Below, piece by piece: positions 1-23,690 of a stretch of DNA of 64,000 bases (positions are counted from its first letter, which is position 1; every line of letters begins with the position of its first letter). Under the pieces are notes generated by a model, which made no database searches, was not told where the DNA came from, and saw nothing but the letters and a program-made list of their open reading frames with translations. The position numbers and the translations under genes were made by a program. This stretch comes from Asparagopsis taxiformis (Eukaryota > Rhodophyta > Florideophyceae > Bonnemaisoniales > Bonnemaisoniaceae): contig JALQPE010001729.1 in NCBI GenBank assembly GCA_030407315.1, positions 1-64,000 of the forward strand. The letters are read 5' to 3'.

Positions 1-176
1 TAATTTCGTTTATTCGACTTGCGAACCCGACGGGACGCGATTGACGGAACGTCTGTGTTTTCGGAAGTGGACGCGGACGTCCAGTCTCTCTAGTACGGGT
101 CCTAGTCGGCCCGAGATTTACTAGAACAAAGAACGTCCGCGTCCGAAAAAAAAATAAAAAATTTTTTGGATGCGGA
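1..176. repeat. Left outer end of the island, GGACGTCC/CTAGTAC-type repeat
   Basis: Between about 50 and 110 this segment reads CGTCTGTGTT, then TCGGAA, then TGGACGCGGACGTCCA, then CTCTAGTAC. The same order of blocks is found on the opposite strand at about 23630-23680. The two ends of the first 23.7 kb are therefore inverted relative to each other. Further GGACGTCC-like and CTAG-containing words follow. No coding potential is visible. It may be a terminal or subterminal repeat of a large transposon; the true outer boundary is not resolved. Confidence 0.6.
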
Positions 177-612
177 CGCCACTTTCTCTAGTACATATGG
201 CGAATACTAGGGCCCGACATCCACTTTCTCTAGTACATATGGCGGAATACTAGGACCCGACATCCACTTTCTCTAGTACATATGGCGGAATACTAGGACC
301 CGACATCCACTTTCTCTAGTACATTTGGCGGAATTTACTAGGACCCGACATCCACTTTCTCTAGTACATATGGCGGAATACTAGGACCCGACATCCACTT
401 TCTCTAGTACATATGGCGGAATACTAGGACCCGACATCCACTTTCTCTAGTACGTTTGGCGGAATACTAGGACCCGACATCCACTTTCTCTAGTACATTG
501 GCGGAATACTAGGACCCGACATCCACTTTCTCTAGTACATATGGCGGAATACTAGGACCCGACATCCACTTTCTCTAGTACATATGGCGGAATACTAGGA
601 CCCGACATCCAG
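177..612. repeat. Tandem array, ~43-bp unit, about 10 copies
   Basis: A 43-bp unit (ATCCACTTTCTCTAGTAC, then ATATGGCGGAATACTAGGAC, then CCGAC) repeats head to tail about ten times with few changes. Variants include a 2-3 bp insertion near 332 and small losses near 493. Each unit holds CTAGTAC and ACTAGGAC plus the half-site GACATCCA. High copy identity implies recent amplification or homogenisation. Arrays like this near CACTA-type transposon ends serve as binding sites for an accessory DNA-binding protein; that role is inferred here. Confidence 0.9.
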
Positions 613-736
613 TATACAATATATCAGCGAAAACCGGGAGGGAAGAAATTACAGCGGATGGTAAATCAGGGCCCATATCGGACCGTATTTTATTCTCTCA
701 TTTAGAAAACTGCTCGTATACAATACGTCTCTCTAG

Positions 737-865
737 AATAGGAAATACATATCTGGTCAGAATAGGAAATAAATACCCGGTTAGAATAGGAAATAAATAC
801 CCGGCCAGAATAGGAATACGTATCCAGCCAGAATACAAAATACCTGTCAGCATATCGTCGATCAC
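737..865. repeat. Short tandem repeat, ~24-bp unit
   Basis: About five copies of a 23-24 bp unit built on AGAATAGGAAATAAATACCC, followed by GGTT or GGCC. The copies are slightly diverged and the last is degraded. A/T-rich, no coding signal. It lies between the 43-bp array and the C/A-rich zone. Confidence 0.8.
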
Positions 866-899
866 CCATCTCCCTCACTATCGCGTTCTCCCTACCATC

Positions 900-2220
900 C
901 GAACGCCATGCACCACCATCCGCACATACTGCAAGAACCCTCACGACCTAGATTACAAAAAATACGCTCCTCCCAATACCATCCCCGCTTTCCTCGACAC
1001 CACCCCAGCCCATTAAATCATCAAGACATCAAACACGAACATGGTCAGCAAAATCTTACACCACTTGAAACGCACTCTCACTTCTATCGTATGCCCAAAA
1101 ATATACACATACCAGAAACACCTCACAGCTTCATTCCCATCTTCCTACATCCCTTCTTCACTCTCCTTCAGTCCTGCCGTTCCTGCTTCACCACTCCTGC
1201 ATCACATACAAAACATCAAATCAACCACAACAGTCAGACTCAAAAGCAACGCTTACCACGACAGATATCCTAGAAACTCCCTTACTTACCTCTCATCTGA
1301 TCCCATACACAAAATACAAACCATGATCCAAAAACCTTGCAATGAATAATCAAAGTCAGCAGTCCATATCTTCGCAAAACAAGTCTTGGTGCTCAGTAAA
1401 ACTTACCTTCTGTCATCAACATTCCTGCATCATCTACACAACATCGGAATCAACCACAACAGTCAGACTCAAAACCAACCTTCCATCACAGCATACTTTC
1501 AAAACTCGCACACTTACCTTCGCTCCACACAATACACACCATGACTCAATAGGCTTCCAATGAAAAATATCGCATCAACGGAAATAGTCAGACTCAAAAC
1601 CAACCTTCCCTCGCTGCTTACTTTCAAAACTCGCACACTTACTTTACCTGTTCCATCCTGCACACAATAAAAACCATAAATCACGTAATCGTGTAGCCAA
1701 GAAAAGTAGTCAGCATTCCGCATCTTCGCACAACCGGTCTGGGCGCCCAATGTGACTTACCTTCCGTCATCACTATTCCTCCATCACCTACGCAACATCG
1801 GATTCAATCGCAACAGTCAGATTGAAAACCAACGTTTCCCTCGCTACATACCCTGAGAACTCGCAAATGTACCTCTCATCCATCCTACACACAATACAAA
1901 CCATGATCCAAAAACCTTGCAATTAACAATAATCATAGTCAGCAGTCCATATCTTCGCAAAGCACATCTTGGCACTCAATGAAACTTACCTTCCGTCATC
2001 AACATTCCTGCATCATCTACACAACATCGGAATCAACCAACAGTCAGACTCAAAATCAACCTTCCCTCACAGCATACTTACAAACTTCACGTACCTCTCT
2101 TCCATCCTCCGCTCAATACACACCATCAGTCAACAGGCTTCCCATGAAAAATATCGCATCAACGGAAATAGTCAGACTCAAAACCCACGCTTCCCTCAAC
2201 GCATACCCTCGAGGGTAGAG
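900..2220. repeat. Degenerate, interspersed tandem repeats in a C/A-rich strand
   Basis: The + strand is strikingly poor in G. Blocks recur several times: CAGTCAGACTCAAAAC near 1231, 1460, 1588, 2042 and 2170, with a diverged copy near 1820; TTCCTGCATCATCTACAC near 1420 and 2004; and a block ending CAAAAACCTTGCAAT near 1325 and 1907. Small open frames here are by-products of base skew and do not look like proteins. The zone mirrors the G-rich zone at 22380-23300, as expected if the two are inverted ends of one element. Confidence 0.7.
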
Positions 2221-2232
2221 GATGGAACGAAG

Positions 2233-2871: not shown

Positions 2872-5800
2872 ATGGAATGCAAGTATGAAGGGTGCTTCTA
2901 CTACTGCGTAGATGCTTATGCGCTCGCGCTGCATGAGCGAACGTGTCGCTACCGTTTCAACCCCTCTCCCCAACATTTCAACAACGCTCGTGTCCCTGCC
3001 GTCACCCATGAGCCTGCTCGAAACGGCGACCATGATTCCCCGCAACCCAGCTCCCCAGACCCAGAATCTGGTCGTGCTTCCTCCAGCGACTCACCCTGTG
3101 ACGCTCCACTGCCACCAACCTCAACCCCCTCCCGCGCAGACCTCCTCGTGCAATCCCTCGCCGCCAGTCTCACAACCCTCGAGTACAAGGCCGGCGCTGG
3201 CCGCGTGAGCGAAGTCATCACCATCCTACAAGACCCCGCATTCTCCCTAGAAAAGTTCAACAGCGCCGTTCGCACCGTAGAAGAATGTCGCCACGTTACC
3301 GCTTCCATGGTCGAAACACATTTCCGCACCGAAGGTTACAAGAGCCACATCATTCCAGACAAAACTGGTAAGTACTCGGCACAGCTGTACCTCCGCGACC
3401 CAGTCGACATGCTCCGCAGGCAGTTAGCACTGGCTAACGACCAAAATACTCTCTTCCACCCCTCCCCACAGACCGCCCCAGACGGCACCGCAATATTTTC
3501 TCATCCCCTACACACAGAATTCGCGAAAACGCTGCACCAGGTTACTAGACAGCGCGTGCAGCTCTCGGAAGATCCACAGGTCGTATGGGCAGAGGAAAAT
3601 GATCCCACACCTTCCTCCTTTGCCGGCCTCCTCCAAGTGTACTCCGACAAGAGCAGCACAAGCCTCAAGAGCTCCGCAATCGTCGCATACCCCATACACG
3701 TCACACTGCTCAACTTCTCCGCCCCCCTCCGTCGCCACTGCATCCGTACCGGCCTCACCATCGTCGGGTATCTTCCGTACATTGTTAACCCTTCGTCCAA
3801 CGCCTTGTTCGGTGATGAAATGCCGACAACCTCTAGTTCTGCTAGTCGCGCTCGCAAAATTGATATTCTTCATAAAGCACTCGAAAAAGTGTTTTCGTCC
3901 CTATCCACCGCGTTCTCTTCCGGGTTCCCCTGCACAGACTCCACTGCAACTGCCCGCCAATGCTTTCCCATCCTAGCCAATTATTGCTGCGACTTTCCAG
4001 AGGCCAAAGAGCTGTCATGCACTCGCAACAGCACTACCACCACACATCCCTGCCACCGCTGCTACATCCCCGCCACTCAACTTGAATCCAGCGCGCCACA
4101 CCAGCCCCGCTCCCTCGATGATACACGCTCTGCACGCCAAGAGAGCGCTCAGGAGCATACAACTGCTCCGCTCGAAGCTCTCTCCCTCCTCGAACAACAC
4201 TCTGTCCTCGAATCGACCGCTCTTTTACCCACCAACAGTCCCCTAGACCCCTACAACATTTTCTCCTTCGAGCCTCTGCACAATCTCCACCTCGGCATCT
4301 CAAAGCTCATCAAACAGTGCATTGTCCACCGCCTCAGCTCCCCAGACCTCACCACCACCACTGCCTCCCATTCCGGGACACCTCGCACCTTCAAGAAGGT
4401 GAAAAAATCCATCCTCGCCGGCTCAAACAGCATTCTGTCCGCTATCGAACGCGACTACTACATCACCGGTCTTCATGTCGACTTCTCCAAGGGTGAGAAG
4501 GGCACCAATTTGAACGGCCTCTTCACGGAGGACGGCATACGCGGCATGCTCGCAGCCAAAGACTATCACCATGTCGACATGGTGTTCCCTTTCATCGCAG
4601 CATTCATTGACACATGCTGTGACGAAGTAGATACAGCCCCCCTCACTTCCATCTGCACGCAATACTCTGACCTCGTCGCATGGGTCATGAAACGCGGTCG
4701 CATCAAGCACTGGACTGCCGCCGAACTAGAAAGCCTCCAGAACTCCATTTCCTATTTCAAACAATCAATGCTCTCCACCCTCGGCCCATTCCACACCACA
4801 GGTCTCAAAACTTTCAAGTTCCATCTTCTAGACCATCTTCCCGGTGACTTGCAGAGATATGGCGCCCTGGAACACATTGATGCAGGCCCTTACGAACACT
4901 CGCATCTTCTGTTCAAACAGAGTTATAGGAAAACCTCTCGAAGGCGCTCCACAGCCATGGAAGAGACTATTCGCCACATGGAATTCTCCTTGGCCACTCC
5001 AACTGGTCATACCCCATCGAACACATTGGGAAACGCACGCATGATATCGCCCACAGACGGTGCAGTACTCGTTCGCGACGGATTCACCGTTGCACTGCAC
5101 GACTTTGCCTCCCTGCTGCCCGATGCAACCCTCCTCGTTGCAGATATCGACGGACAGCCCGATCCTGCCACTCTTTTGCCTCTGCACAACTCCTCGTTCC
5201 CGTCTGGCACCATAACGCTATTCCAGCAACTCGGTGACACAGCTGCACAAGCGTTCCTCACCCTCGCTAGACTGCGCGCCACGGCAGAAGGCCCTCCAAT
5301 ACATGACATGGACATTTCCGTCACCGTGGTAAAGTCCGCCTACGTCATGGGAGGGTACGTCCCAGATGCCGACGACTTTGACCCGCACAGTGGCATGCTT
5401 CGCCCCACAAACGTGTCGAGGCACAAGCAGCAGCGCGTCTTTGCAACTTCATCGTTCGGCCCCGCAAAGAGATCGCAGTACTCCTTTGTCGTCATCTCCG
5501 GAACTGCCGATGACTACAGAACCATATGGGTAGGGCGCGTCCTGGCACTGGTACGCCTGCAGTCTCCAAACCTGTTTCAACCTGTAGAACTCGCTTTCGT
5601 TCAGTATATGACCTGCTTTGCCCCAAAAACCGCTGTGGAAAAATCACTTGGGTGCATTTGTTTAAAGTGGTCCACATGGGACCCGGACAACGGATCCGTT
5701 GACAGCAATGACACTGCATCCCACAGTGCAGGTGGTCCTTGGTTTGACCTCATTCCTGCATCTACTATATCTGGCACCGTGCACATCGTACGAAGTAACT

Positions 5801-5913
5801 TTCCAGTCAAGCCATTTACGAAACAAATGCACTGGTCGGACCACCGTTTCTATCTCAACCGCTTCTACACCAACACTGATTACCAATTCACAGATGATAA
5901 TGAAGAAGAATAA
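2872..5913 (+). CDS. Plavaka-like (CACTA/CMC superfamily) DNA transposase
   Basis: A 1013-residue protein in one open frame. The N-terminus carries a C2HC zinc finger (C3, C8, H21, C25), followed by a Pro/Ser/Thr-rich linker to about residue 75. Several blocks match the Plavaka transposase family in order: a YP-x-HVTLLN segment at about 273 leading to VGYLP at about 299, a FPILANYCCDFPEAKELSC-like block with a CxxC at about 360-395, LHNLHLG at 469, and a HLLDHLPGD...E.SH...K..YRKTSRRR block at about 650-700. Known family members are nuclear enzymes that cut and rejoin element ends. The frame is uninterrupted, so the gene may be functional. It converges on the coiled-coil gene, 77 bp away. A KDZ-type transposase was considered, but the block order fits Plavaka better. 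The assignment is by recalled family motifs, without alignment. Confidence 0.82.
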   Translation: MECKYEGCFYYCVDAYALALHERTCRYRFNPSPQHFNNARVPAVTHEPARNGDHDSPQPSSPDPESGRASSSDSPCDAPLPPTSTPSRADLLVQSLAASLTTLEYKAGAGRVSEVITILQDPAFSLEKFNSAVRTVEECRHVTASMVETHFRTEGYKSHIIPDKTGKYSAQLYLRDPVDMLRRQLALANDQNTLFHPSPQTAPDGTAIFSHPLHTEFAKTLHQVTRQRVQLSEDPQVVWAEENDPTPSSFAGLLQVYSDKSSTSLKSSAIVAYPIHVTLLNFSAPLRRHCIRTGLTIVGYLPYIVNPSSNALFGDEMPTTSSSASRARKIDILHKALEKVFSSLSTAFSSGFPCTDSTATARQCFPILANYCCDFPEAKELSCTRNSTTTTHPCHRCYIPATQLESSAPHQPRSLDDTRSARQESAQEHTTAPLEALSLLEQHSVLESTALLPTNSPLDPYNIFSFEPLHNLHLGISKLIKQCIVHRLSSPDLTTTTASHSGTPRTFKKVKKSILAGSNSILSAIERDYYITGLHVDFSKGEKGTNLNGLFTEDGIRGMLAAKDYHHVDMVFPFIAAFIDTCCDEVDTAPLTSICTQYSDLVAWVMKRGRIKHWTAAELESLQNSISYFKQSMLSTLGPFHTTGLKTFKFHLLDHLPGDLQRYGALEHIDAGPYEHSHLLFKQSYRKTSRRRSTAMEETIRHMEFSLATPTGHTPSNTLGNARMISPTDGAVLVRDGFTVALHDFASLLPDATLLVADIDGQPDPATLLPLHNSSFPSGTITLFQQLGDTAAQAFLTLARLRATAEGPPIHDMDISVTVVKSAYVMGGYVPDADDFDPHSGMLRPTNVSRHKQQRVFATSSFGPAKRSQYSFVVISGTADDYRTIWVGRVLALVRLQSPNLFQPVELAFVQYMTCFAPKTAVEKSLGCICLKWSTWDPDNGSVDSNDTASHSAGGPWFDLIPASTISGTVHIVRSNFPVKPFTKQMHWSDHRFYLNRFYTNTDYQFTDDNEEE

Positions 5914-5990
5914 ATCTAAATCGCAGCACTCTATTGATAATGTACTACATGATAAACCTTCTAGTCAACGTCACATTTACTGCACTAATT

Positions 5991-7874
5991 TCAACCATCC
6001 TCCATTACGCCAAAACCGTTATCAGCAGTGGCTGCATGGCGCCGCTCCATGCCCCCATACTGTGGGGCATTGATTTCGACATTCAGGTTTGCACTCAGGT
6101 GTCCAGCATATGGGTCAACGACGAAAAGTTCTGCGCCAATTAGTCCTTGCGCAATCACACAATCCATTACAGCACCGAGGTTTGACGTAATATGCGATTG
6201 AATCCAATCCTCGGACACTAGAACAAGTGATGAGCAGCGGTTTACATCATCAACGACATGAACAATTCCAGACCCCTCTCCGCTTTGCCACACTTCAACA
6301 GCCTCTCTCGTCACAGTACGGCTTGCAAACACATGCCGTGACTGTGCACTAGTCCGCTGTTCGCTCTCGACAACGTCCGTTTCTTCCCTTGCTTGCGAGC
6401 CTTGGAGACAAGACATGCAGTACACCACCATACCAACTAATTGCTGAAAAGCTACCCCCACATATTGACTGTACCGCCTTGTAAACTCCTTCTGCCGTGC
6501 ACCTCCTTTCCCCTTCGGTTCATCCAAACACTCCACAGTAGTCACTAGCCAAGCATCCAGGCGCGCCAGCGTTAGTATGCTCGTCTCTATGTCCATTACT
6601 TGTTCTGGTCGTATCGAATAACCCCTGAAGATGTCCAGCACATTCACAGCTACTCGGTTGTTAAACCATGCATCACCATTCACTTCCATTTCGAAGCTGT
6701 CAGGAACCAAGCCTTTGCTGTATCGCAGCTCTGAGAACGGTGCCGTTCGCCACCTCCCCATATCCAAATCACCGTTACTTTCCCGTTTCAAAAGCTTCTC
6801 AGACGCTTCGCGCTTTTGTTCCTCTCGCTCGTCCATCTCAGCTCGCGTCGTCAGCATCGTGCATCTAGACATTAATTTCGTGTACCCCAGCGAACCGAAC
6901 AATCTGTCCCTCGCATTACGCTTCCGTGCACTCATCACGTCGGACAGTTTCTGCGTCACCTTCACTTTCAATTCCTTGCTCCCCGCCACAGCCTCTTGAC
7001 AGCACACACGCTGCTCCTCATCGGAAAACACATCACACCACGGACTTTGACGCAGTACGTGTCGCACCAAGTCATTCAGCAGATCACTCTCGTCCCTGTA
7101 CGAAGGTGTATACCACTGCAGATTCTTGATGATATAGCCCGGAGGGGTAGCAATATATCCTACACCGTTTTCGCTCCAAAGTGCCCCTTCTACCGGCTCT
7201 ACCTCGATGGTACGTCCAGTCCAACGTCTCTGCGTTTGTTCCGCTATAGGGTCCAGCTCCATAGTCTCGTTCTTGCACCACTTTGTCAGGTTTTCCTCAA
7301 CCGCCCTAAGAACTCCAAGGTATTTCACAGGAATGGCTTTCTGTATTTTCGACTTACCGCCACCGTGATCACTGATTCTACCTGTTCTCGCAATTGCAGT
7401 AAGGCTGGCATTTTCCGCCTGCAGAGTCTTCACCTTAGCCTCCAACGCAACAATCTCCGTGGTGAGCGCCTTGTTTGCTATGTCCTGGCTAAACACTTTT
7501 TTTTCCAGCTCCGCGATCTTCTTCTTCTGCGCATTGATGCGACTCGCCATTAAATCGATGGATTCCGGCGGATGCAACCTCTCTGCCCTCACCGTCCCCC
7601 CATCTCCCACGCTATCGGGAATATGATGTCCTCCATCGCCAATAGCCTGACGTCGCGGGGGCGTTACGCGCATATTTGGCACCAATGACAGTCTGTTGTG
7701 ACGAGGCCCGCACTCCGGCTGCTCTCTCCCCTCAGTACCACCTGACCGCCGATGATAGTTGGCATCCTGTGAACGTTGCTCAGAAACAACATCCCTTGCC
7801 GCTATCCTCGGGTCCCTGACTGCATTACCTGCTGGGGCTGATGTACTCGGCATAGTTGGCGCAGTGGGGGTCAC
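5991..7874 (-). CDS. Coiled-coil protein of the transposon island, main frame
   Basis: About 620 residues; I do not recognise the family. The frame can begin at GTG (7874) or at the first ATG (7853). It remains open further upstream, overlapping the frame at 7871-8275, so the true N-terminus probably lies there. Visible parts are a Pro/Arg-rich N-terminus, a leucine-zipper coiled coil at about residues 108-162 (repeated Ile/Leu with Lys/Glu) and a mixed alpha/beta-looking remainder with scattered Cys. It converges on the transposase. CACTA-type elements often carry a second, DNA-binding protein (TnpA class) that coats subterminal repeats; by position and coiled coil this may be the equivalent. 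That role is an inference. Confidence 0.6.
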   Translation of the reverse strand: MTPTAPTMPSTSAPAGNAVRDPRIAARDVVSEQRSQDANYHRRSGGTEGREQPECGPRHNRLSLVPNMRVTPPRRQAIGDGGHHIPDSVGDGGTVRAERLHPPESIDLMASRINAQKKKIAELEKKVFSQDIANKALTTEIVALEAKVKTLQAENASLTAIARTGRISDHGGGKSKIQKAIPVKYLGVLRAVEENLTKWCKNETMELDPIAEQTQRRWTGRTIEVEPVEGALWSENGVGYIATPPGYIIKNLQWYTPSYRDESDLLNDLVRHVLRQSPWCDVFSDEEQRVCCQEAVAGSKELKVKVTQKLSDVMSARKRNARDRLFGSLGYTKLMSRCTMLTTRAEMDEREEQKREASEKLLKRESNGDLDMGRWRTAPFSELRYSKGLVPDSFEMEVNGDAWFNNRVAVNVLDIFRGYSIRPEQVMDIETSILTLARLDAWLVTTVECLDEPKGKGGARQKEFTRRYSQYVGVAFQQLVGMVVYCMSCLQGSQAREETDVVESEQRTSAQSRHVFASRTVTREAVEVWQSGEGSGIVHVVDDVNRCSSLVLVSEDWIQSHITSNLGAVMDCVIAQGLIGAELFVVDPYAGHLSANLNVEINAPQYGGMERRHAATADNGFGVMEDG

Positions 7875-8275
7875 AGCCTCCAGTGTCTCGGAACCCCCGG
7901 CTGGGACTCCGTCTGCAGCACCTCCGCATCTGCCAACCCGGGAGGAACTACCTTTGCCATAGCACTCTGCCGCAATTCCAACATGTTTTGAGCCACTATC
8001 ATGTCATCATCATGATGTTCACTGTCCCTGCGAGCACGCTTGCCTCGGTCAAGCCCCATCTCTCTCCGCGCCGTTCCTCCTTCCTCACTTTCTCGCTGCG
8101 GATCCCCAGTTCTGCGCCGGTCCGTCTTGCGACTACCGGACCGCGGTTCAATGCTGCCGGTAGGCCCAGACCGCTTCTTCGCACGGGATTGTCGGGCACT
8201 CGATACAGCAGCTGCTGACCGGGTTTTCTGGAGGCCCGGAGGCTTTGGAGCTTTCTTCGCAATACGCGGCGGCAT
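7871..8275 (-). CDS. Basic N-terminal frame of the coiled-coil protein
   Basis: 134 codons starting MPPRIAKKAPKPP, very rich in Arg, Lys, Ser and Pro, like a nuclear-localisation or DNA-contacting tail. It ends with TGA at 7871-7873, while the downstream frame is already open and shifted by -1. The two were probably one protein, joined by a short intron, a frameshift mutation or ribosomal frameshifting. No canonical X XXY YYZ slippery site was found in the overlap. The ParB-like gene at 15909 has the same -1 arrangement. Confidence 0.5.
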   Translation of the reverse strand: MPPRIAKKAPKPPGLQKTRSAAAVSSARQSRAKKRSGPTGSIEPRSGSRKTDRRRTGDPQRESEEGGTARREMGLDRGKRARRDSEHHDDDMIVAQNMLELRQSAMAKVVPPGLADAEVLQTESQPGVPRHWRL

Positions 8276-8501
8276 AATGAAGCCTTCCCGGAAGCGATGG
8301 AACGATTGAGTTGCACGAGATACAAAAAAGATTGCTGTATAGTGTCGGTAACCACAACGGTCTGCGATGAACGTTCAGGTCAAGTACCGGATAATACGCC
8401 AACAGCCAGATTGTATACGGTAGGCAGTCATCAACAGTATTTAATGAGGTACAATTACAGCTGTCGAGCTAGGCCGCGAGCACCCCTATGTCCGGAAGAC
8501 G

Positions 8502-9445
8502 TCCTGATTTGAATTAAAATTTGGGCTATTCTCAAAAACATGCACATGTGAACATGTTTTTGAGATGGGGGTGTGCCGTACGGCACAATCGACCGCCCAA
8601 ATCGATGTTTTTTGCAATATTTTTTTGTGCCCGAAATTTTAGAATTTCTGGGCTGGCCAGCAATGCAATCGAGCTGGACATCCACCGGACGTCCATTTCA
8701 GGTTGGTCGTGAGAGAGCGGGGCGGGACCATGATGGAACAAGGACCAAGACCTGTCCCTGGCGTATTGAGCCTGAAATTGACCCTTCGTCAGACGCCATT
8801 TAGCCTTACAGTTGGTGCTTACAGAAGCCAGTGATGACCCGCTCGGGGCGGCGGTCGGTTCCTGGGGCCGTTGTGGCCAAATTAGACACCCTGATTTGAA
8901 TTGAAATTTGGGCTATTCTCAAAAACATGCACATGTGAACATGTTTTTGAGATGGGGGTGTGCCGTACGGCACAATCGACCGCCCAAATCGATGTTTTTT
9001 GCAATATTTTTTGTGCCCGAAATTTTAGAATTTCTGGGCTGGCCAGCAATGCAATCGAGCTGGACATCCACCGGACGTCCATTTCAGGTTGGTCGTGAGA
9101 GAGCGGGCGGGACCATGATGGAACAAGGACCAAGACCTGTCCCTGGCGTATTGAGCCTGAAATTGACCCTTCGTCAGACGCCATTTAGCCTTACAGTTGG
9201 TGCTTACAGAAGCCAGTGATGCCCCGATCGGGGCGGCGGCGGTGCCTGGGGCCGTTGTGGCCAAATTAGACACCCTGATTTGAATTAAAATTTGGGCTAT
9301 TCTCAAAAACATGCACATGTGAACATGTTTTTGAAATGGGGGTGTGCCGTACGGCACAATCGGCCGCCCAAATCAAGGTTTTTTACAATATTTTTGCTGC
9401 CCGAAATTCTACAATTTCTGGGCTGGCCAGTAATGCATTAGCTAT
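8502..9445 (+). repeat. Array of the ~385-bp hairpin repeat, forward, 2.4 copies
   Basis: Units start at CTGATTTGAATT (8504, 8891, 9275), a period of 387 then 384 bp. Each contains a hairpin with 12-bp arms CTCAAAAACATG / CATGTTTTTGAG and a 10-base loop. About 10 bp later comes the perfect palindrome GTGCCGTACGGCAC. Then follow an A/T-rich box, CTGGCCAGC, and a GGACATCC...GGACGTCC pair. The third copy breaks off near 9445. Frames predicted inside are repeat shadows. Confidence 0.92.
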
Positions 9446-9905: not shown

Positions 9906-9908
9906 TTT

Positions 9909-10260: not shown

Positions 10261-10533
10261 GATCACAAGTAGACGTAGTTGGGCTCCTTTTCGAAGCCCA
10301 TTCGTCTCTTGAATAAATTTAGCACCCAAATCATATACGATTGCCGAGTTGACACCCCGTATGTCTCGTTGGTAGAAATAGCAGGGGTTCCACCACTCAG
10401 CTGGCGGGAAGTAGTTACTGATTATATGAGATATGGCTTAGCTCCCGCCAAAACCGATAGCTCTGGGCTCAGGTTCTCCAAATGTGGTTATACGAATGTG
10501 TTCTGACAATGGTAGAAGACGAATATCTGCATC

Positions 10534-10730
10534 CTGCTTTGAATTAAAATTTGGGCTATTCTCAAAAACATGCACATGTGAACATGTTTTTGAGATGGGG
10601 GTGTGCCGTACGGCACAATCGACCGCCGAAATCGATGTTTTTTGCAATATTTTTTCTGCCCGAAATTGTAGAATTTCTGGGCTGGCCAGCAATGCATCTG
10701 AGTCGGACATCCCCACGTCCAGTGGCCGTC
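10534..10730 (+). repeat. Single forward copy of the hairpin repeat, left flank of the methylase-SET gene
   Basis: One partial unit with the hairpin (from 10559), GTGCCGTACGGCAC and a degenerate GGACATCC...CGTCC end. It faces inverted copies beginning near 14465, so the gene between them is bracketed by inverted repeats of about 190 bp. Confidence 0.88.
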
Positions 10731-14245: not shown

Positions 14246-14464
14246 GGTCACGAAAGATGTTTTCATTTCGACTACAAATAAAGCTACGTTCCAGAGTTGA
14301 AGTATATCATATAATGCAGAATGTCCAGCCACCATTAGTCCAGGGTGAAACCTATTCGGCAGTACTCGCCTGTCAAAAACCAATCGTTCACACTCTAGGT
14401 GCACTTCGTCCGAGCAGTGAACCTGACTGCTTGGTTGCTGTTATGCGTGCAGATGCAAAATACA

Positions 14465-15562
14465 AGACCAAGTTGAAATGGACGCCCGGTGGATGTCCAG
14501 CTCAGTTGCATTGCTGTCCAGCCCAGAAATTCTACAATTCAGGGCAGAAAAAATATTGCAAAAAACATCGATTTCAGCGGGTCGATTGTGCCGTACGGCA
14601 CACCCCCATCTCAAAAACATGTTCACATGTGCATGTTTTTGAGAATAGCCCAAATTTTAATTCAAATCAGGGTGTCTAATTTGGCCACAACGGCCCCAGG
14701 AACCGACCGCCGCCCCGAGTGGGGTTGTCACTGGCTTCTGTAAGCACTAACTGTAAGGCTAAATGGCGTCTGACAAAGGGTCAATTTCAGGCTCAATACG
14801 CCAGGGACAGGTCTTGGTCCTTGTTCCATCATGGTCCCACCCCACTCTCTCACGACCAACCTGAAATGCACGTCCGGTGGATGTCCAGCTCGATTGCACT
14901 GCTGGCCAGCCCGGAAATTCTAAAATTTCGGGCACAAAAAAATTGTAAAAAATCAACGATTTCAGCGGGTCGTTTGTGCCGTACGGCACACCCCCATTTC
15001 AAAAACATGTTCACATGTGCATGTTTTTGAGAATAGCCCAAATTTTAATTCAAATCAGGGTGTCTAATTTGGCCACAACGGCCCCAGGAACCGGCCGCCG
15101 CCCCGAGCGGGGTCATCACTGGCTTCTGTAAGCACTAACTGTGAGGCTAAATGGCGCCGGAAGATGGGCCGATTGCAGGCTTCAAGCCTAAGTTATGCTA
15201 GGGAGAAATCTTCTTCCGTGTTTCATCATGGTCCCGCCTTACTCCCTCAACAGAAACACTACTCACCCATCACGTTACTCATATTCCGTGCACTTTATAT
15301 TAGTAGTGAACCCGCCTGCTTAGTTGCTGCAATGCGTGGATGTAGGCAGCACACGACCAACCTGAAATGGACGTCCGGTGGATGTCCATCTCAGATGCAC
15401 TGCTGGCCAGCCCAGAAATTCTAAAATTTCGGGCACAAAAAATCTTGCAAAAATCAACGATTTGGGCGGGTCGATTGTGCCGTACGGCACACCCCCATCT
15501 CAAAAACATGTTCACATGTGCATGTTTTTGAGAATAGCCCAAATTTTAACTCAAATCAGGGT
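14465..15562 (-). repeat. Array of the hairpin repeat, reverse orientation, 3 copies
   Basis: Three reverse units with hairpins at about 14610, 15000 and 15500. Two unit types alternate: the standard ~385-bp unit, and a longer one that carries an extra block (about 15145-15355, with TTCAAGCCTAAGTTATGCTA). All keep the 12-bp hairpin arms, the GTGCCGTACGGCAC palindrome and GGACGTCC/GGATGTCC, except that the copy near 14480 has GGACGCCC. Confidence 0.92.
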
Positions 15563-15908
15563 GTTCCCCGGATAAAGGGGTGCTCGCAGCCGCCCCAAAA
15601 GCCGCCTAGCTTGACAGCTGTAATTTTAACACATTACACATCAAGGACACTGCCTGCTTCACGCCACCTCGTCAGGTTTCGAGAGCCCGACTCGGGCCCG
15701 TTCTGAACGGACACTCACATCTCGATTGCCTGTCTTGCATTCCAGCGGTCACGATAGGTGTGTACCTAACAAAATTTCGGTTGTATTGTGTTATTATTTC
15801 CAGCGATTGGCGTTCACGACCATTCTTCAACTTGACGTGAAACATACCATCCACATCACTCGAATACGTCAACGTCAACCATCTCTTTTCCTTTCCAACT
15901 CAACAACC

Positions 15909-16277
15909 ATGGCGGATACGCATTTCAGCAGTTTGTTTTCAACGGTTTGCGGCGATCAAGTGAGCGCGTCAGCGGAGTCGCGCGGACTCAAGCGCGGCGT
16001 CGATGTCGACTTGTTTGCGGACGTGGACGGTGCGGCTGTGCATATTGGGACGGCTTCGGTGAGCACTGCTGGTGGCGATGTTGGCCTTCCGCGCACGCTG
16101 CACAACCACAAGCTGCCGGAAACCGACGAGGCCGACTATATCGTCGTGCGCAACATTGCGACTAAGGACAAGTTCAAGGACCTCCCGTTCCCGTACATTT
16201 TGATGGCGCCGAGGGACCGCCGGAGACGATGGGTGGAGCATACGCCGCGGCGTTTTACCCTTGGGATACTCGGATGA
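15909..16277 (+). CDS. N-terminal frame of the ParB-like/dioxygenase protein
   Basis: 122 codons starting MADTHFSSLF at the first ATG after an A/C-rich leader. It has no recognised domain and ends at TGA 16275-16277. The main frame is already open from about 16165 and lies at -1, so the two overlap by about 110 bp. They probably encode one polypeptide, through a short intron, a frameshift mutation or recoding. It could also be a separate small upstream protein. Confidence 0.5.
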   Translation: MADTHFSSLFSTVCGDQVSASAESRGLKRGVDVDLFADVDGAAVHIGTASVSTAGGDVGLPRTLHNHKLPETDEADYIVVRNIATKDKFKDLPFPYILMAPRDRRRRWVEHTPRRFTLGILG

Positions 16278-19200
16278 TGCGCCCCGCTGCGGAGGATGGC
16301 TCTAGCGACATTCGTACCCCTGCTGCAGCGTCAAACTTCAACGCAGCGACGAACCAGGCCAGCTCGGGACGGATGCCCAGTACCGGTCCAGCAGGCGAAA
16401 TCACTGGTTCGGGGGGTACGAAGCATCCAGCACGCTCCGTCCCGGTTTCGGGAGGCACGAAGCGCCCTGCTCGCTCTGCCAGAGCCTCCAGTGGAGGCAC
16501 GAAGCACCCTGCTCGCTCCAACGTCACCGAAGCTACTACGCAGGACGTAACCGAGGTGGACGACGAACCGGAGGTGGCGGAAAGCATTCGTGAGCAGCAG
16601 GGGACGCAAATTATGGTGCCCAAGTTTGTGACGTCGGATTACGTCGGAGAAGGAGCGACTGTGTTGGTGAGGCAGCTAGTGGAACCGGCCGTGACCCTTC
16701 GCGATGTCAAAGAAGACCACGTGGAGGACCTGCGCAACAATATGTTGGCGGTGGGGTATGTGAGCTCTTCGCGTATCACTGTGACGGTGCTGAGGTCGCA
16801 GAACACGCATTTGTCCGCCGACACGCGTCTGTTCCAGAATGGCAAATTCCATGCCAATGCGAACGTGACCGTGATCGACGGACTGCATCGTCTCAATGCT
16901 ATGCATAGCATTGCGGATGACTTCACGCGCCTCACCCGTATGCACAGAACCAAGCTGCCACAGGAGGCAAACCGCTTGCGCTGGGTTACTCAGCCTCTGG
17001 ATGTGTACTACCTTCGCCGCAAGGACGACAGTGATCTCCAGCCTCATGAGATCATCCACAAGAGTGCAGAGTCGAACCATACGACTGGGACGCAACTGAC
17101 GGAGCGCTCCCTGGTTCGAATCTTGTCGTCCATCCAGCAGTTCATCCGTACGATTGCTGTTGCAAACAACGTGGAAAACGCTGGCGACTTGCGTGAGTCT
17201 GATGTCATCCGAACATTGTTCGAGGCGCAGTTCATGGGGATGATGAATTCGACGAACACGGCTCGGCGGTGGACGCGTTTGGCTATAGCAACGCTGAAGC
17301 ATCCTGTTCTCGACGACGTGTTGCGTGAGCTGAACAATTCCGAGCGCCGCAACGAGATTGGGATAACGCACCTGGACCACAAGATAGTGCGCGAGTTGCT
17401 GGAAGAAAACTTTGTCTTCGTCTTGCGTGGTCTTTCGGAGTACTTGAACCCTGCTCATGGCGGACGTCCGGATGGACGCTTTGACGTGAACGACTTTTAT
17501 ACATACGTCCGTCGCGTGACTGCAATAGCAAATTCTCTGTACGCTGCGTTTGGGCGCCCAAAGAGTATTATGCGCAAGTCATTTCTGAGCACAGAGATGG
17601 CAATTGGGTCGGTTAAGCAGCCGAAGGAGTTGCAATGGCATCTCACCAATGCCATTGCAATGTATAGAGGGGACGACCGGAGCAGTGAGGTTCGAATGCG
17701 ACGGAGAACCACGCGTTTACAGGATTTGGAAACGAACTTGAAAGAGTTTTTCAATCCGACATTGAAGAAGAAGACTAAGGCTCGACGCAAACGCCGCCCT
17801 TCTGCTGCCAATGTGAGACTCACTCACAAGAAGCAGCGGAATGTCGAACATGAGCCTGCTTCGCATGGCATCCGCCGCCGTTCACAGCGACTTCGCTCGA
17901 CGGGGAGCACACGCCTCGAGGAAGAAGAGCCGGTTGTGGTACAACAATCCGCCGGGGAAGAAGAGCAGGCCGTTGTTGATAAACCCACCGATCAACAACA
18001 AGCCACTGCTTCCGGTGATGAGGTTGACGAAGACTCCGCCCGTTCCCCCGATTCTGCCGTTGAGATTGTCCCCCAAGATAACCAACGTGCTGGTGCGACT
18101 CCCTCCAACCAAGAATCTGTCCATACCGCTTCGGACGAGGAAGACAAACAGGGTGCAGACGAGGGCCAAGTCGAAAGCAAGGGGGTCCGCGAAGTGACAA
18201 TTACATTCACTGTTCCGGAAGGAGTGGAAGTCGATGAAGACGGTTACATCGTTCGTGACTCTCCTTCTGAAGACGACCTCCTCTTCGACGACCGTATGCC
18301 GTCTCTTCCTGACGATTTCGAAGACCGAGCCGAAGGGCATCATCTGGCGCAGCGTCCCGCGGATGTCATCGCATCGGTGAGGGTTGGCTGTCTGCCCCCG
18401 ATTGAGCTCAGGTTGTTATTGGAGAGTGTGGAAATCGATGAGGAGGGCAGAGAGGTGAGGTATTTGAAGCAAGTGGCGATGGACCCTGTGTTTGAGGGGC
18501 TGCATATTCCGGAAGAACATCGGGCTCGTGTGCTATTCGAAATCGATCACGTCTATCCGATGTTCTTCGCAGCGTGGAAGATGGCTGCCAAGGCGATGTG
18601 TGAGCCTACATCGACGTTTCTACCCTCGAGGCTGGACTTCGCTCAGGTTGCGCGAATGTCTACAAGCTGGAAGGATTCGTATGAGGCCGGCACTGGTATG
18701 GCGTACTTCCACAATTGCCGAACGGAAATCAACGAGCGAGGGTATACGGTGATGCACAATTTCGCGGATGTAAGCTACCTAGATGCGTCGGACAAGTTCC
18801 CATTTGACTTGGGTCTCATGGAAGAAATTCCTAACCAGGAATTGTTTCGGTACTTTTTGGGAACGTGGGAGGGGGAGCAGGTGCACAAGGACCCTGGGAA
18901 CCGGCAGCTGTGGAGTCCCATTGTCAATACGGGGGACGATGAAACAGACGAGAAGAACCGGAATGAGGGGAGGGCTCGCTTCACGTCTACGCGCCACTGC
19001 CTGGTTGACTATGCCGAGAACGATGAGACGCATATCGACCGGTTCAAGTTTGTGACGCGGCGAGCCCTGCTGGATGTGTGGTTGGGAATCCTTGTCCGGC
19101 TGACAGGGCTGGAGGAGTGCGGTTTACCGGGAGAAAAACTTGTCATGCCGGCATCTGGGGGACGGTTTTTGATAACGGGAAAGGGGTGTCCTCGGCAGGT

Positions 19201-19840
19201 CCCACACAATGATTTCCCTGTTCCTCCTCGCGACCGCAAAGATCAACTTCCGGGTTACTTTGTTATTGCCAACGGAGATGACCCATTCCCTATCTGGGTG
19301 TGTCCAGGGTCCCACAAGTACGTCTTTTCCAAAGCGCTGGAATTAGATATGTACGCCAAGACGATGAAGCTGAAGAAGGTAATCGTTCCGCCACGTTCAG
19401 TCTTCATCGGTCACGGCCATGTACAACATGCCGGGGCAGGGCATGTCGACAGAGTTGTGTCACACACGACAACGAGGTATCACACGTATTTCAGGAATGC
19501 GTCGTATCCGATTCCCGACAATGTTTCGTTTGGTTTCATCAGGCGGTTGGGATTCGAAGAAGAAGTCATCGCCAATGCTCCGCGCCGGTCTGCAAGGCAA
19601 AGTCAACCGGCACCTGTCAATGTTCGCCACAAGACAGTTGTTCCCATCCCGGTCAAGAAAGATGGTAGGCCGAAGACAGGGCAGCTCCGAATGATGCGGA
19701 TGAAGACGACAGAACCTCGCAAGGATGTAATGCACACACCGAGTGTGGCCCCGGTAGTGCCTCTTCTGCCGGGACAACCTGGATATCTAGTTCACTATCA
19801 TAGTGAGGACGAAGAGGAAGAACAGTTTTCCGACGGCTAG
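16229..19840 (+). CDS. ParB-like domain plus 2OG/Fe(II)-dioxygenase-like protein
   Basis: 1203 residues in the main frame. After a repetitive Ser/Gly/Thr segment with three HPARS/RPARS-type repeats (about 60-100), residues ~140-240 form a ParB/sulfiredoxin-fold domain with the signature VIDGLHRLNAM (215-225). An acidic, Lys/Arg- and Gln-rich linker (about 510-690) follows. The C-terminal third resembles a double-stranded beta-helix oxygenase: H993-N-D995, a distal His in GHGHVQHAG (1064 or 1067) and R1083 in TTRYHTYF. That pattern fits Fe(II) ligands HxD...H and a 2-oxoglutarate-binding Arg. ParB-like domains bind or cut DNA; such oxygenases can hydroxylate or demethylate bases or proteins. 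A role as reader or eraser for the neighbouring methylase is inferred. Hairpin arrays flank the gene on both sides, both in reverse orientation. Confidence 0.7.
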   Translation: MGGAYAAAFYPWDTRMMRPAAEDGSSDIRTPAAASNFNAATNQASSGRMPSTGPAGEITGSGGTKHPARSVPVSGGTKRPARSARASSGGTKHPARSNVTEATTQDVTEVDDEPEVAESIREQQGTQIMVPKFVTSDYVGEGATVLVRQLVEPAVTLRDVKEDHVEDLRNNMLAVGYVSSSRITVTVLRSQNTHLSADTRLFQNGKFHANANVTVIDGLHRLNAMHSIADDFTRLTRMHRTKLPQEANRLRWVTQPLDVYYLRRKDDSDLQPHEIIHKSAESNHTTGTQLTERSLVRILSSIQQFIRTIAVANNVENAGDLRESDVIRTLFEAQFMGMMNSTNTARRWTRLAIATLKHPVLDDVLRELNNSERRNEIGITHLDHKIVRELLEENFVFVLRGLSEYLNPAHGGRPDGRFDVNDFYTYVRRVTAIANSLYAAFGRPKSIMRKSFLSTEMAIGSVKQPKELQWHLTNAIAMYRGDDRSSEVRMRRRTTRLQDLETNLKEFFNPTLKKKTKARRKRRPSAANVRLTHKKQRNVEHEPASHGIRRRSQRLRSTGSTRLEEEEPVVVQQSAGEEEQAVVDKPTDQQQATASGDEVDEDSARSPDSAVEIVPQDNQRAGATPSNQESVHTASDEEDKQGADEGQVESKGVREVTITFTVPEGVEVDEDGYIVRDSPSEDDLLFDDRMPSLPDDFEDRAEGHHLAQRPADVIASVRVGCLPPIELRLLLESVEIDEEGREVRYLKQVAMDPVFEGLHIPEEHRARVLFEIDHVYPMFFAAWKMAAKAMCEPTSTFLPSRLDFAQVARMSTSWKDSYEAGTGMAYFHNCRTEINERGYTVMHNFADVSYLDASDKFPFDLGLMEEIPNQELFRYFLGTWEGEQVHKDPGNRQLWSPIVNTGDDETDEKNRNEGRARFTSTRHCLVDYAENDETHIDRFKFVTRRALLDVWLGILVRLTGLEECGLPGEKLVMPASGGRFLITGKGCPRQVPHNDFPVPPRDRKDQLPGYFVIANGDDPFPIWVCPGSHKYVFSKALELDMYAKTMKLKKVIVPPRSVFIGHGHVQHAGAGHVDRVVSHTTTRYHTYFRNASYPIPDNVSFGFIRRLGFEEEVIANAPRRSARQSQPAPVNVRHKTVVPIPVKKDGRPKTGQLRMMRMKTTEPRKDVMHTPSVAPVVPLLPGQPGYLVHYHSEDEEEEQFSDG

Positions 19841-20104: not shown

Positions 20105-22030
20105 ATACACGATCACCTGAAATGGACGTCCGGTGGATGTCCAACTCAGATGCATTCCTGGCCGGCCCAGAAATTCTACAATTTCGGGCACAAAAAAATA
20201 TTGCAAAAAACATCGATTTGGGCGGTCGATTGTGCCGTACGGCACACCCCCATCTCAAAAACATGTTCACATGTGCATGTTTTTGAGAATAGCCCAAATT
20301 TTAATTCAAATCAGGGTGTCTAATTTGGCCACAACGGCCCCAGGCACCGGAACCGCCGCCCCGAGCGGGGTCATCACTGGCTTCTGTAAGCACTAACTGT
20401 AAGGCTAAATGGCGCCTAACGATGGGTCGATTCCAGGCTTCAAGCCTAAGTTATGCTAGGGTGACATCGTTTCCCCTGTTCCATCATGGTCCTGCCTTAC
20501 TCCTCCACGACAAACACTACTCACCCATCACGTTACTCGTATTCCGTGCACTTTGTATGAGTAGTGAACTCGCCTGCTTAGTTGCTGCAATGCGTGGATG
20601 TAGGCAGCACACGACCAACCTGAAATGGACGTCCGGTGGATGTCCATCTCAGATGCACTGCTGGCCAGCCCAGAAATTCTAAAATTTCGGGCACAAAAAA
20701 TCTTGCAAAAATCAACGATTTGGGCGGGTCGATTGTGCCGTACGGCACACCCCCATCTCAAAAACATGTTCACATGTGCATGTTTTTGAGAATAGCCCAA
20801 ATTTTAATTCGAATCAGGGTGTCTAATTTGGCCACAACGGCCCCAGGCACCGGCCACCGGCCCCGATCGGGGCTATCACTGGCTTCTGTAAGCACCAACT
20901 GTAAGGCTAAATGGCGTCTGACGAAGGGTCAATTTCAGGCTCAATACGCCAGGGACAGGTCTTGGTCCTTGTTCCATCATGGTCCCGCCCCGCTCTCTCA
21001 CGACCAACCTGAAATGCACGTCCGGTGGATGTCCAGCTCGATTGCATTGCTGGCCAGCCCAGAAATTCTAAAATTTCGGGCACAGAAAAATATTGCAAAA
21101 AACATCGATTTGGGCGGTCGATTGTGCCGTACGGCACACCCCCATCTCAAAAACATGTTCACATGTGCATGTTTTTGAGAATAGCCCAAATTTTAATTCA
21201 AATCAGGGTGTCTAATTTGGCCACAACGGCCCCAGGAACCGACCGCCGCCCCGAGCGGGGTCATCACTGGCTTCTGTAAGCACTAACTGTGAGGCTAAAT
21301 GGCGCCGAAAGATGGGTCGATTCCAGGCTTCAAGCCTAAGTTATGCTAGGTACGCATCTTCTTCCGTGTTTCATAATGGTCCCGCCTTACTCCCTCAACA
21401 CAAACACTACTCACCTATCACGTTACTCATATTCCGTGTACTTTGTATGAGTAGTGAACTCGCCTGCTTAGTTTCTGCAATGCGTGGATGTAGGCAGCAC
21501 ACGACCAACCTGAAATGGACGTCCGGTGGATGTCCAGCTCAGATGCACTGCTGGCCAGCCCAGAAATTCTAAAATTTCGGGCACAAAAAATCTTGCAAAA
21601 ATCAACGATTTGGGCGGTCGATTGTGCCGTACGGCACACCCCCATCTCAAAAACATGTTCACATGTGCATGTTTTTGAGAATAGCCCAAATTTTAATTCA
21701 AATCAGGGTGTCTAATTTGGCCACAACGGCCCCAGGAACCGACCGCCGGCCCCGATCGGGGGCTATCACTGGCGTCTGTAAGCACCAACTGTAAGCCGGA
21801 GCCGGCTGCCGCCCCGATCGGGGCTATCACTGGCTTCTATTAGCACCAACTGTAAGCCAAAATCGCGTCTCACGAAGGGTCGATTTCAGGCTCAACACGT
21901 CAGGGAAAGGTCTTGGTCCTTGTTTCATCATGGTCCCGCCCCACCCTCTCGCGACCAACCTGAAATGGACGTCCGGTGGATGTCCAGCTCGATTGCATTG
22001 CTGGCCAGCCCAGAAATTCTAAAATTTCCG
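20105..22030 (-). repeat. Array of the hairpin repeat, reverse orientation, 4 copies plus a fragment
   Basis: Reverse units with hairpins near 20254, 20759, 21148 and 21648, alternating the standard and long unit types as at 14465-15562. A last fragment (about 21950-22030) keeps GGACGTCC/GGATGTCC and CTGGCCAGC but lacks the hairpin. Two short 70-bp duplications of the CCCGATCGGGG-type linker occur at about 21740-21860. Unit order matches the 14.5-kb array, so a block of two units was probably duplicated as a whole. Confidence 0.92.
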
Positions 22031-22379
22031 AAAAATCAATTTGGTGGCCCAGCATCTCCTGTGCCGAAAATTCCCGCACTCAGTTCTGATATACGTCTAG
22101 ACGTGTTTCCCACTTGTACGCATCAGGGAAGGCGTCACGGAAGGTTGACACTACGCTACTTGTGTACCGCGTCGTCTGAAATAGCGAGTAGTGTTTGTTG
22201 TATAGTTGTGGAGTATGCGTCTAGTGGTTTGTAAAGCTTGCAGAACGGGATAGGGATGTGGGTGGCCCTATTTTATGAATACATGAGTACCAATATTCAG
22301 GGTTGACAAAGCGGAAAGGCATAGGCTCATACATGTTTGAGATTGCATAGTAGAGAAAATATTTTCATCGAAATTTACA
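22031..22379. other. Spacer, no gene seen
   Basis: Non-repetitive sequence between the last hairpin array and the G-rich zone. No coding frame or motif was recognised. Confidence 0.5.
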
Positions 22380-23300
22380 TGGAGCTGATGGAGGTTTTAA
22401 GGATGAGGTATGAGAGGAAGAAAATTCTTCTGTGGTATGAGGATGTGTTCTGTGGGGGGATGGAATCTTGGGATGGTACAGGGGGAGGTGGAAATGTACG
22501 GAGTGCGGGTTTAGAATGGATTGTGATTCGGAGAGGAGTGCCGACAAGCATATTATGGGGATTGGGGAGACGCTGCGGGGTGTTGGGGTAGTGAGGGCGG
22601 AGGAGGTGTTTAGGTGGGACCGTAGGAGGGTGCGGTTGAAGGCGCCGAGAGGAGGGGTTTTTAGGAAAGTGAGGAGAAAGAAGGGGAGGGGGTGGCGTCT
22701 GTTCTGGCTGTGGTGAGTGGGGATGTGATGGAGAAGAAGGGGGTTATTGTATTTGGGGAGGGAGGGGAGTGGGAGGAAGGGTGCGAAGTGGGGGGTTGAT
22801 ATGTGTTTCAGAGCGGGGAGGTTTCTGGGGATACGGCGGGGGAGCCACCCCGCAGTGCGGGAGCGTGGGCCGGTGGTGGTGGTGTATACGGTATCGAAGA
22901 TGCGGATGGCGTGGGGGCATGGAGCAGCTGAGGGAGGGAGGGGTGGAGCAGGTCGGGTACGGGATGGGGAGTGAGAGGTTTTGGAAGAGTAAGCTGCAGG
23001 GGAAGTTTGTGTAGAGGGCGAAGGAGAGGGGTTGAGGGTAGAGGAGAGAGGGTACTGAAGAACAATACGTTTCAAAGGTGATGGGGGAGAGCATGGTCGA
23101 GGAGATAGGGGGTGTTTTGCCCTATTCTGAGGTAGTATGAGGACTGGTTATACGAAATCTGTACGGTAGAGCAGAAAAGTAGGTATGGAATGGAGGTGTG
23201 CACCGTGGAAGCGGGGATAGGTATCTGAAAATGCGTGCTAGAGTGGTATTGGGGGTGTTTGAGGTACAGTACGGGGGAGGTGAGCACCAACAGGAAGGGG
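22380..23300. other. G-rich, strand-skewed zone near the right end
   Basis: The + strand is extremely rich in G and poor in C, with many runs of three or more G (for example around 22480-22720, 22750-22870 and 22930-22980). This makes long stop-free frames on the minus strand that read as Pro/Ser/His/Leu-rich low complexity. I do not call a gene. It mirrors the C/A-rich zone at 900-2220 and has G-quadruplex potential. Confidence 0.6.
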
Positions 23301-23369
23301 GTGTGAGCGAGAGGATGAAAAAATTAAAGACGAAATTGGAGTCGACCGACAAGGAAAAATAGAGTGGTC

Positions 23370-23690
23370 GCCGTGATGGATGCGGACATCCATGTCGAGC
23401 ACGGCGGCAGAAATTTCTGGGGTCGAAATTTTTGAATTTCTGAACCGGCGCCCGTCCTAGGTGGACATAGACATGGCGGAAGTCCATCCCGAGGGGGACA
23501 TCCGTGGTACTAGAAACAATGAATGTCGCCCTAGTAATACTAGACGTACTAGACCGCATGGACGTCCGGTTCTAGGCGGACATCCAAAAATACTGGAGAA
23601 CATGGACGTCCGCCTAGTAATACTAGGTGTACTAGAGGTTGTGGACGTCCGCGTCCATTTCCGAGAACACAGACGAAGGCAAAGATGAAT
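23370..23690. repeat. Right outer end of the island, GGACGTCC/CTAGTAC-type repeats
   Basis: Several diverged units contain GGACATCC or GGACGTCC, CTAGTAATACTAG and GTACTAGA. The outer ~50 bp (about 23630-23680) are an inverted, slightly diverged copy of about 50-110. The inner part (23385-23455) has GGACATCCA...TCGA...CAGAAATTTC...GAAATTT, in the same order as the hairpin repeat, so the end repeats and internal arrays appear to be distant relatives. Copia sequence starts at about 23670. Confidence 0.75.

Follow-up and report, generated by a model that had tools for sequence, protein, structure and literature searches.

Contig JALQPE010001729.1 of the red alga Asparagopsis taxiformis (assembly GCA_030407315.1) begins with some 23.7 kilobases (kb) in which a transposase gene, a putative DNA methylase-SET fusion and a putative ParB-like/dioxygenase gene stand among related repeats. 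Is this island a single mobile element, and what might such genes do for it? We analysed the first 64,000 nucleotides of the contig (the window; contig C1608, which the window enters at its first base) against the whole assembly of 141,494,207 bases in 3,156 contigs. A preliminary description, made from the sequence of the window, had suggested that positions 1–23,690 move or are maintained as one unit, perhaps a giant Plavaka-type transposon, and had pointed to further genomic copies, shared borders with target duplications, and empty sites as the evidence to look for. The island is one giant DNA transposon that occupies window positions 50–23,675 (23,626 base pairs, bp); the single unit stands and its borders have been corrected inwards.

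Borders, copies and insertion sites

The two ends of the element align as an imperfect inverted repeat of 47 bp (87% identity), in agreement with the inverted, related repeats described earlier at the outer ends, and their outermost 34 bases differ at two positions. We compared the end regions of 20 copies (36 of the 40 regions, 20 left and 16 right; BLAST matches longer than 150 bases). Seventeen of the 20 left ends agree in all of their first 45 bases and begin at one point, the equivalent of window position 50, within differing flanks; C1799 and C135 have one base different, and C1717 has no left end at that place. The right end, window position 23,675, is intact in 9 of the 16 right regions. 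Window bases 1–49 and those from 23,676 onward are flank.

Across the whole genome the exact 34-base left end occurs 1,214 times (609 and 605 on the two strands) and the right end 1,177 times (587 and 590); control patterns, in which both ends were read backwards, gave no match. Probes of 36 bases with up to three mismatches found 1,000 sites for the transposase, 974 for the methylase-SET gene and 913 for the ParB-dioxygenase gene. At roughly 20 kb per copy, the family is estimated at about 19 megabases, near 13% of the assembly, a DNA transposon of more than 20 kb that has reached very high copy number with its cargo retained. For the transposase region (3 kb) and the methylase-SET and ParB-dioxygenase regions, the best 40 matches each, to which this statement is confined, are about 100% identical.

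Spans and orientations were followed in contigs C1–C198, to which all pair and span counts refer, using exact listed probe matches only (90 left ends, 100 right ends, 77 transposase, 50 methylase and 70 ParB matches). Twenty-five of the 90 left ends have a right end in the same orientation within 30 kb. Fourteen of these complete spans measure 10.0–12.0 kb and contain none of the three gene probes, eight measure 14.2–22.5 kb and contain two or three, and the remaining three, at 26–29 kb, perhaps hold nested copies. All 46 pairs of left end and transposase, and 55 of the 57 pairs of ParB and right end, are in the expected orientation.

Both ends lie on one contig in 21 copies. Their flanks share exactly 2 bp in 15 pairs (about 3e-14 by chance at 1/16 each), 3 bp in one, 1 bp in one and nothing in four; the 2-base match is seen in four of the seven pairs with gene probes and in 11 of the 14 without. 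The joined flanks of these 21 pairs and of eight full-length copies were compared with the collected sequence. Seven of the 29 matched across the joint, and five are clean empty sites, with a 2-bp duplication for C12a, C20, C138 and C192b and a 3-bp duplication for C102. Matches for C164 (about 22 unmatched bases) and C117 (no overlap) are unclean. C20 and C102 have their sites inside other copies of the element, in sequence that resembles the partner and ParB genes. Two further sites are in the window (Table 1), that of C12a wholly and that of C138 mostly within a gag-like open reading frame (ORF). The transposase, methylase and ParB probes all match C192b, a copy of 21.4 kb whose empty counterparts are found in L032 and L034. 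The gene-less derivatives of 10–12 kb have also moved.

Could the island nevertheless be a chance cluster of unrelated repeats? In favour of a cluster, nested insertions are frequent (4 of the 20 left regions, L019, L022, L028 and L033, show other element sequence in the flank). Common borders, target duplications and empty sites argue against it, and C192b, which bears genes and has an empty site, refutes it; we give it practically no credence. Genomic copies with unrelated neighbours and no common ends, the pattern expected of such a cluster, were looked for and not found. With common ends, target duplications, empty sites and a constant cargo order in hand, we regard movement as one unit as close to certain.

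Genes of the element

The mobility gene is a Plavaka transposase, as had been proposed; it matches PF18759 with 86.3 bits against a cut-off of 26.3 over profile positions 24–318 of 325. CHRC at residue 418 and HLLDH at residue 675 of the ORF appear to be the C(2)C and H(3-4)H motifs of Plavaka, and the assignment of the catalytic aspartate and glutamate residues is our reading. An early suspicion that the second catalytic aspartate had been lost was dropped, as the motif order apparently places that aspartate at a residue other than the one concerned. In a profile search of the genome, 123 of 1,208 Plavaka candidates were scored and all exceed the cut-off, with no internal stop among the matches listed. 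In eight loci checked, the window's included, the transposase part is open to its terminal stop in seven and the partner frame in all eight; positional differences near 590 in this comparison reflect an insertion/deletion shift and were not used. The transposase of the remaining locus, L007, has 10 stops in the part examined and is apparently frame-broken. A profile scan of six ORF stretches of the element found no tyrosine recombinase.

The gene convergent to the transposase corresponds to a spliced protein of 761 amino acids (P0003, 99% identical over 95%) and has a further relative, P0004 (30% identical). Of the coiled-coil partner postulated earlier, the conserved spliced partner stands, and the coiled coil is suggested by sub-threshold profile matches to coiled-coil families. 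The partner may be the second DNA-binding protein of the element.

The methylase-SET fusion is borne out by one ORF that matches both the N6_N4 methylase profile (PF01555, E=4e-15) and the SET profile (PF00856, E=1e-6, positions 1–105 of 105). LTDPPY precedes DPFSGT in its methylase part; in beta-class amino-methylases DPPY comes before the motif that binds S-adenosylmethionine. The nearest solved relatives are DpnA and CcrM, and a 98%-identical protein of 1065 amino acids is present in the protein collection. Judged by these signatures, the enzyme is a bacterial-type, beta-class amino-methylase (PF01555). No relative of the fusion was found in viral contigs.

The methylase-SET gene sits between the mutually inverted repeat blocks A and B, and its orientation varies. 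Six of 25 transposase–methylase pairs are oriented as in the window, with a median spacing of 7,910, and the other 19 are oriented oppositely, with a median of 6,317; the 28 methylase–ParB pairs are split into 14 with the relative orientation of the window and 14 with the opposite. Among 11 copies followed through all three probes on one contig, the methylase is inverted in eight and three have the window order. An inversion in register of the repeats at 8838–8981 and 14580–14723 predicts a spacing of 6,312 or 6,309, for a copy one unit shorter than the window. Recombination between the inverted repeats would explain both orientations, which may be biological or partly a product of assembly.

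The ParB-like/dioxygenase ORF gave no profile match (Pfam, including Tet_JBP, up to E=10), and nothing useful came from the PDB when it was searched by sequence, either with the complete ORF or with a two-row domain alignment. The protein shares 33% of residues with its relative P0001 in a match that covers 33% of the query, 26% when the full alignment is counted, and 41% in the dioxygenase-like tail. P0001 keeps the DG.HR motif and the residues HNDFPV...GHVQHAG...RYHTYF, which we take to be typical of iron/2-oxoglutarate enzymes. Both parts of the name given to the protein earlier are retained from these motifs and this relative. None of 22 pattern matches in viral contigs was confirmed as a relative; a Tet_JBP search of the algal genome gave no match and, with 0 of 14 controls detected, is uninformative.

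A PF01555 search of the genome, in which 150 of 2,605 first-look candidates were scored, revealed fused relatives. In C116 (37500–41030; L114 1–3531) a single open frame of 1,176 amino acids, its start cut, joins a ParB-like N-terminus to a methylase and a SET domain. The product is 23% identical to the methylase-SET protein of the window over 882 columns (E=5e-47) and matches a ParB phage family at E=0.003, and its DGAHRCMAI aligns with DGLHRLNAM of the ParB-like protein of the window at a weak E=0.038. Of all the observations, this gene speaks most strongly for joint action of ParB, methylase and SET. Seventy-nine of the 150 scored rows have one score, 65.6 bits, with open frames of up to 1,189 amino acids, an equal score being no proof of equal sequence. 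Two genes in C609 and C197 (L115 2–3064 and L116 987–3818) have a methylase and a Cys-rich, finger-like tail instead of SET and are 35% identical to one another; their ParB-like region is recognized by motif only (DGEHR and DGHHR, no profile match).

Diverged pieces of the partner and ParB genes in the flanks of two nested insertions were pooled for a test of selection. Non-synonymous changes make up 10 of 27, where about 71% would be expected (p=2e-4), and 4 of 13 in the ParB gene alone (p=0.003). These values bear on whether the methylase and ParB genes were captured and merely hitch-hike. Copies that miss the ParB or the methylase probe exist (C12:302749, C113:26453 and C52:39208) and gene-less copies have moved, as passive cargo would allow. 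However, the near-equal probe counts, the low non-synonymous share in the ParB gene and the recurrence of the score of the fused distant relative argue otherwise, and we consider hitch-hiking quite improbable. The cargo probably plays a role in the life cycle of the element itself.

Repeats and possible roles of the cargo

The repeat family is concentrated in the element, as had been noticed. All 12 exact sites of GGACGTCC in the window lie within it (1.19 expected in the whole window; none of 100 shuffles reaches 12), as do 26 sites of GGAC[AG]TCC (1.4 expected), of which the other 40.3 kb of the window have one. Of the 30 CTAGTA motifs in the element, 22 are within its first 700 bases and seven within its last 400. 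A gene-less copy of 11,129 bp in C14, in which no ORF reaches 160 amino acids, has a right end 94% and a left end 85–92% like those of the window (BLAST matches longer than 250 bases). This copy contains 16 exact GGACGTCC sites against 0.23 expected. Since GGACGTCC has been kept and multiplied in a mobile copy that lacks the genes, its most plausible role is that of a cis-acting site. Self-comparison of the C14 copy (matches longer than 300 bases) also revealed inner inverted arms of 2.1 kb, 98.7% identical, around a 2.6-kb spacer (L112 2856–4965 / L113; C14 7584–9693). The mirrored strand-skew zones reported inside the ends are present in the window element, with a GC skew of −0.52 at 1001–2000 and +0.51 at 22001–23000. 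They do not align with each other beyond the terminal inverted repeat, so their symmetry is compositional only; homologous inverted arms were considered and ruled out there, only the 47-bp repeat being alignable.

We suggest that the transposase, probably with its coiled-coil partner, recognizes the terminal repeats as well as the subterminal arrays of CTAGTA and GGAC[AG]TCC and would move the whole 20–24-kb unit, duplicating two (sometimes three) target bases. Gene-less copies would likely be moved in trans. The methylase-SET protein could put a base mark, N6-methyladenine (6mA) or N4-methylcytosine (4mC), and a histone mark on element DNA; the ParB-like protein could bind the repeats, and its dioxygenase-like tail alter or remove the mark. 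Such marking might keep copies expressible or tune transposition. The strict division of labour, with methylase-SET as writer and ParB-dioxygenase as eraser, is tentative, its odds falling somewhat short of even. The genome parasite seems to carry an epigenetic toolkit of its own, made up of genes apparently capable of writing and removing chemical marks on DNA and chromatin. The fusion of a bacterial-type DNA methylase to SET could exemplify one protein that writes both chromatin layers, and with about 1,000 copies any mark left should show readily in ordinary long-read data. The element is a natural test of whether transposons escape silencing or impose it.

The cargo might serve anti-silencing only, the methylase-SET protein adding an activating mark and the ParB-dioxygenase removing a silencing mark of the host, with no self-limitation. 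Fungal transposons with TET/JBP dioxygenases have been published and read as cases of silencing escape (PMC12730594, accessible part), and about 1,000 copies by probe, the best 40 per region being nearly identical, suggest that escape is effective. However, the dioxygenase-like tail lacks a TET/JBP profile match, and no C5-cytosine methylase was found in the genome by a by-exon search that detected 10 of 14 controls and may miss split genes (PF01555 was detected in this genome by its own search), which leaves the mark to be erased unclear; the non-detection could reflect real absence or split exons. We see this as a possibility, although one that we would not bet on. Self-silencing, or dosage control, would turn the scheme around: the methylase-SET protein would compact element DNA and limit transposition and damage. 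Such a role has a parallel in the bdelloid PF01555 methylase tied to SETDB1 (PMC8885841, accessible part), and here both domains are in one protein. A very high copy number and near-identical best copies do not suggest strong self-restraint, and we find this role doubtful. The reading that we favour is element-directed marking of its own DNA and chromatin, in which escape from silencing is placed slightly ahead of self-restraint; epigenetic self-marking is what we infer from the gene content.

A more elaborate form of self-marking, which we think unlikely in its entirety, is a C5-independent system. The ParB-like protein would read GGAC[AG]TCC, the methylase write 6mA or 4mC, SET add a matching histone mark, and the dioxygenase erase or convert the base mark. 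The ParB-methylase-SET and ParB-methylase-finger fusions would then be variants in rival mobile families, and inversion of the cassette would switch its setting.

As an explanation of the whole, an autonomous giant transposon of the Plavaka/CACTA kind with its own chromatin system has, in our estimate, a probability of about 0.82. Several results count against it. Seven of the 16 right regions lack the right end at the expected place (copies differ in length), and 5 of the 21 flank pairs have no 2- or 3-bp duplication. In a set of nine full-length copies that takes in the one of the window, two have flanks with 2 bp in common, which is not significant (p=0.10), and one has flanks with 3 bp in common. 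The left and right flanks of C1778 and of C135 come from different target sites (flank hits of at least 120 bases that reach the border were compared), which we read as ectopic recombination between similar copies or as errors of assembly. What the empty sites represent is the corresponding stretch in further repeat copies, not an allele. The element has the termini CGTCTGTG..CACAGACG, with variable flanks directly outside, and falls into neither published end class, 5'-TGT..ACA-3' of PlavakaA or 5'-CATCA..TGATG-3' of PlavakaB (PMC12730594). The selection test has few changes and excludes C164, the only transposase rows (4 synonymous and 12 non-synonymous changes), which was omitted because one side is poorly aligned: one side has 1 synonymous and 2 non-synonymous changes, the other 3 and 10 with 874 gap columns. 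With C164 included, 22 of 43 changes are non-synonymous. Finally, both AlphaFold models of the ParB-dioxygenase (1051 and 305 residues, from two-sequence alignments) are poor, with a mean predicted local distance difference test score (pLDDT) of 28.3 and 31.4.

Relation to known elements and neighbouring sequence

Large CACTA/En-Spm elements are like this one in size class, in their subterminal repeats and in having a transposase and a second protein. The pair to compare is TnpA/TnpD. The present element differs in its Plavaka-type transposase and epigenetic cargo. CACTA/En-Spm elements of 16–20 kb in Chondrus crispus (PMC6431247) and of 20.5 kb in soybean (PMC2613891) have been described, here as in the following cases according to the accessible parts of the papers cited. 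Plavaka elements make 2- or 3-bp target duplications and have C(2)C and H(3-4)H motifs (Kojima, 2025; PMC12730594), and the element shares these features together with the transposase domain. A dioxygenase gene is present in some published Plavaka families; where the PE-type TET of PlavakaB shows HxE, the dioxygenase-like tail here shows HxD. Methylase-SET or ParB cargo is not mentioned in the accessible part of that paper, and our literature search, with most subscription journals outside its scope, found no Plavaka element with either.

In Amoebidium, Plavaka-flanked tandem gene clusters of up to 50 kb contain many tyrosine recombinase genes (PMC11244446). As here, a Plavaka transposase stands beside a large repeated gene cluster; the accessible text mentions no methylase-SET cargo, unlike the situation in Asparagopsis. 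Starship giant elements have a tyrosine-recombinase captain, of which the six ORF stretches scanned gave no match. The bdelloid N4CMT is likewise a bacterial-type PF01555 amino-methylase in a eukaryote with a link to histone methylation, being tied to SETDB1 in transposon silencing through 4mC and methylation of histone H3 lysine 9 (PMC8885841). However, N4CMT is a host gene with a chromodomain fusion and SETDB1 as a partner, whereas the methylase here is transposon-borne and fused to SET. DNA transposons with a SET gene are known from oomycetes (HarbingerS and MuDR; PMC12730594); they belong to other transposase superfamilies, and the accessible text mentions no fused DNA methylase.

Table 1. 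Positions in the window of the element, its parts and the empty counterparts of other copies
Feature	Position	Strand	Basis
Complete giant transposon	50..23675	.	Borders common to other copies, end counts, empty sites of other copies
Left terminal inverted repeat, outermost 34 bases CGTCTGTGTTTTCGGAAGTGGACGCGGACGTCCA	50..96	+	Border comparison, end counts, end-to-end alignment
Right terminal inverted repeat	23629..23675	-	Border comparison, end counts, end-to-end alignment
Possible 2-bp target duplication AA, left copy (right copy 23676-23677)	48..49	.	Read from sequence alone; contig begins 49 bp outside element
Left subterminal array, 43-bp unit, 10.1 copies, with CTAGTA motifs; length varies between copies	179..611	+
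C-rich subterminal zone (461 C, 137 G)	850..2200	+	Base counts
Plavaka transposase (ORF 2800-5913)	2872..5913	+	PF18759 E=3e-24; CHRC and HLLDH motifs
Partner gene with probable coiled coil, convergent to transposase; ORFs 5991-8003 and 7871-8374	5991..8374	-	Joined in relative P0003
Internal repeat block A, about 384-bp units with GGACGTCC	8497..9438	+
Partial repeat unit	10530..10712	+
DNA methylase-SET fusion, 1065 amino acids	11048..14245	+	DPPY in stretch from 12560, DPFSGT at 13283, SET from about 13772
Internal repeat block B, inverted relative to block A	14395..15591	-
Putative ParB-like and dioxygenase-like protein; main ORF 16166-19840, upstream ORF 15630-16277 probable first exon (inferred)	15630..19840	+
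Internal repeat block C, inverted relative to block A	20107..22028	-
G-rich mirror zone (91 C, 444 G)	22380-23350		Base counts
Right subterminal cluster of CTAGTA and GGAC[AG]TCC motifs	23380..23650	-
Empty counterpart of joined flanks of 11.7-kb copy C138:36868-48593, duplication TA	61041..61845	+	Joined-flank match
Empty counterpart of joined flanks of 11.1-kb copy C12:264414-275483 (C12a), duplication AA	61771..62570	+	Joined-flank match

Outside the element, an ORF for a Copia-type reverse transcriptase (RVT_2) at 24649–25896 begins about 1 kb past the right end. A reverse transcriptase/RNase H/integrase ORF is located at 54486–57437, and the gag-like ORF spans 61170–63599.

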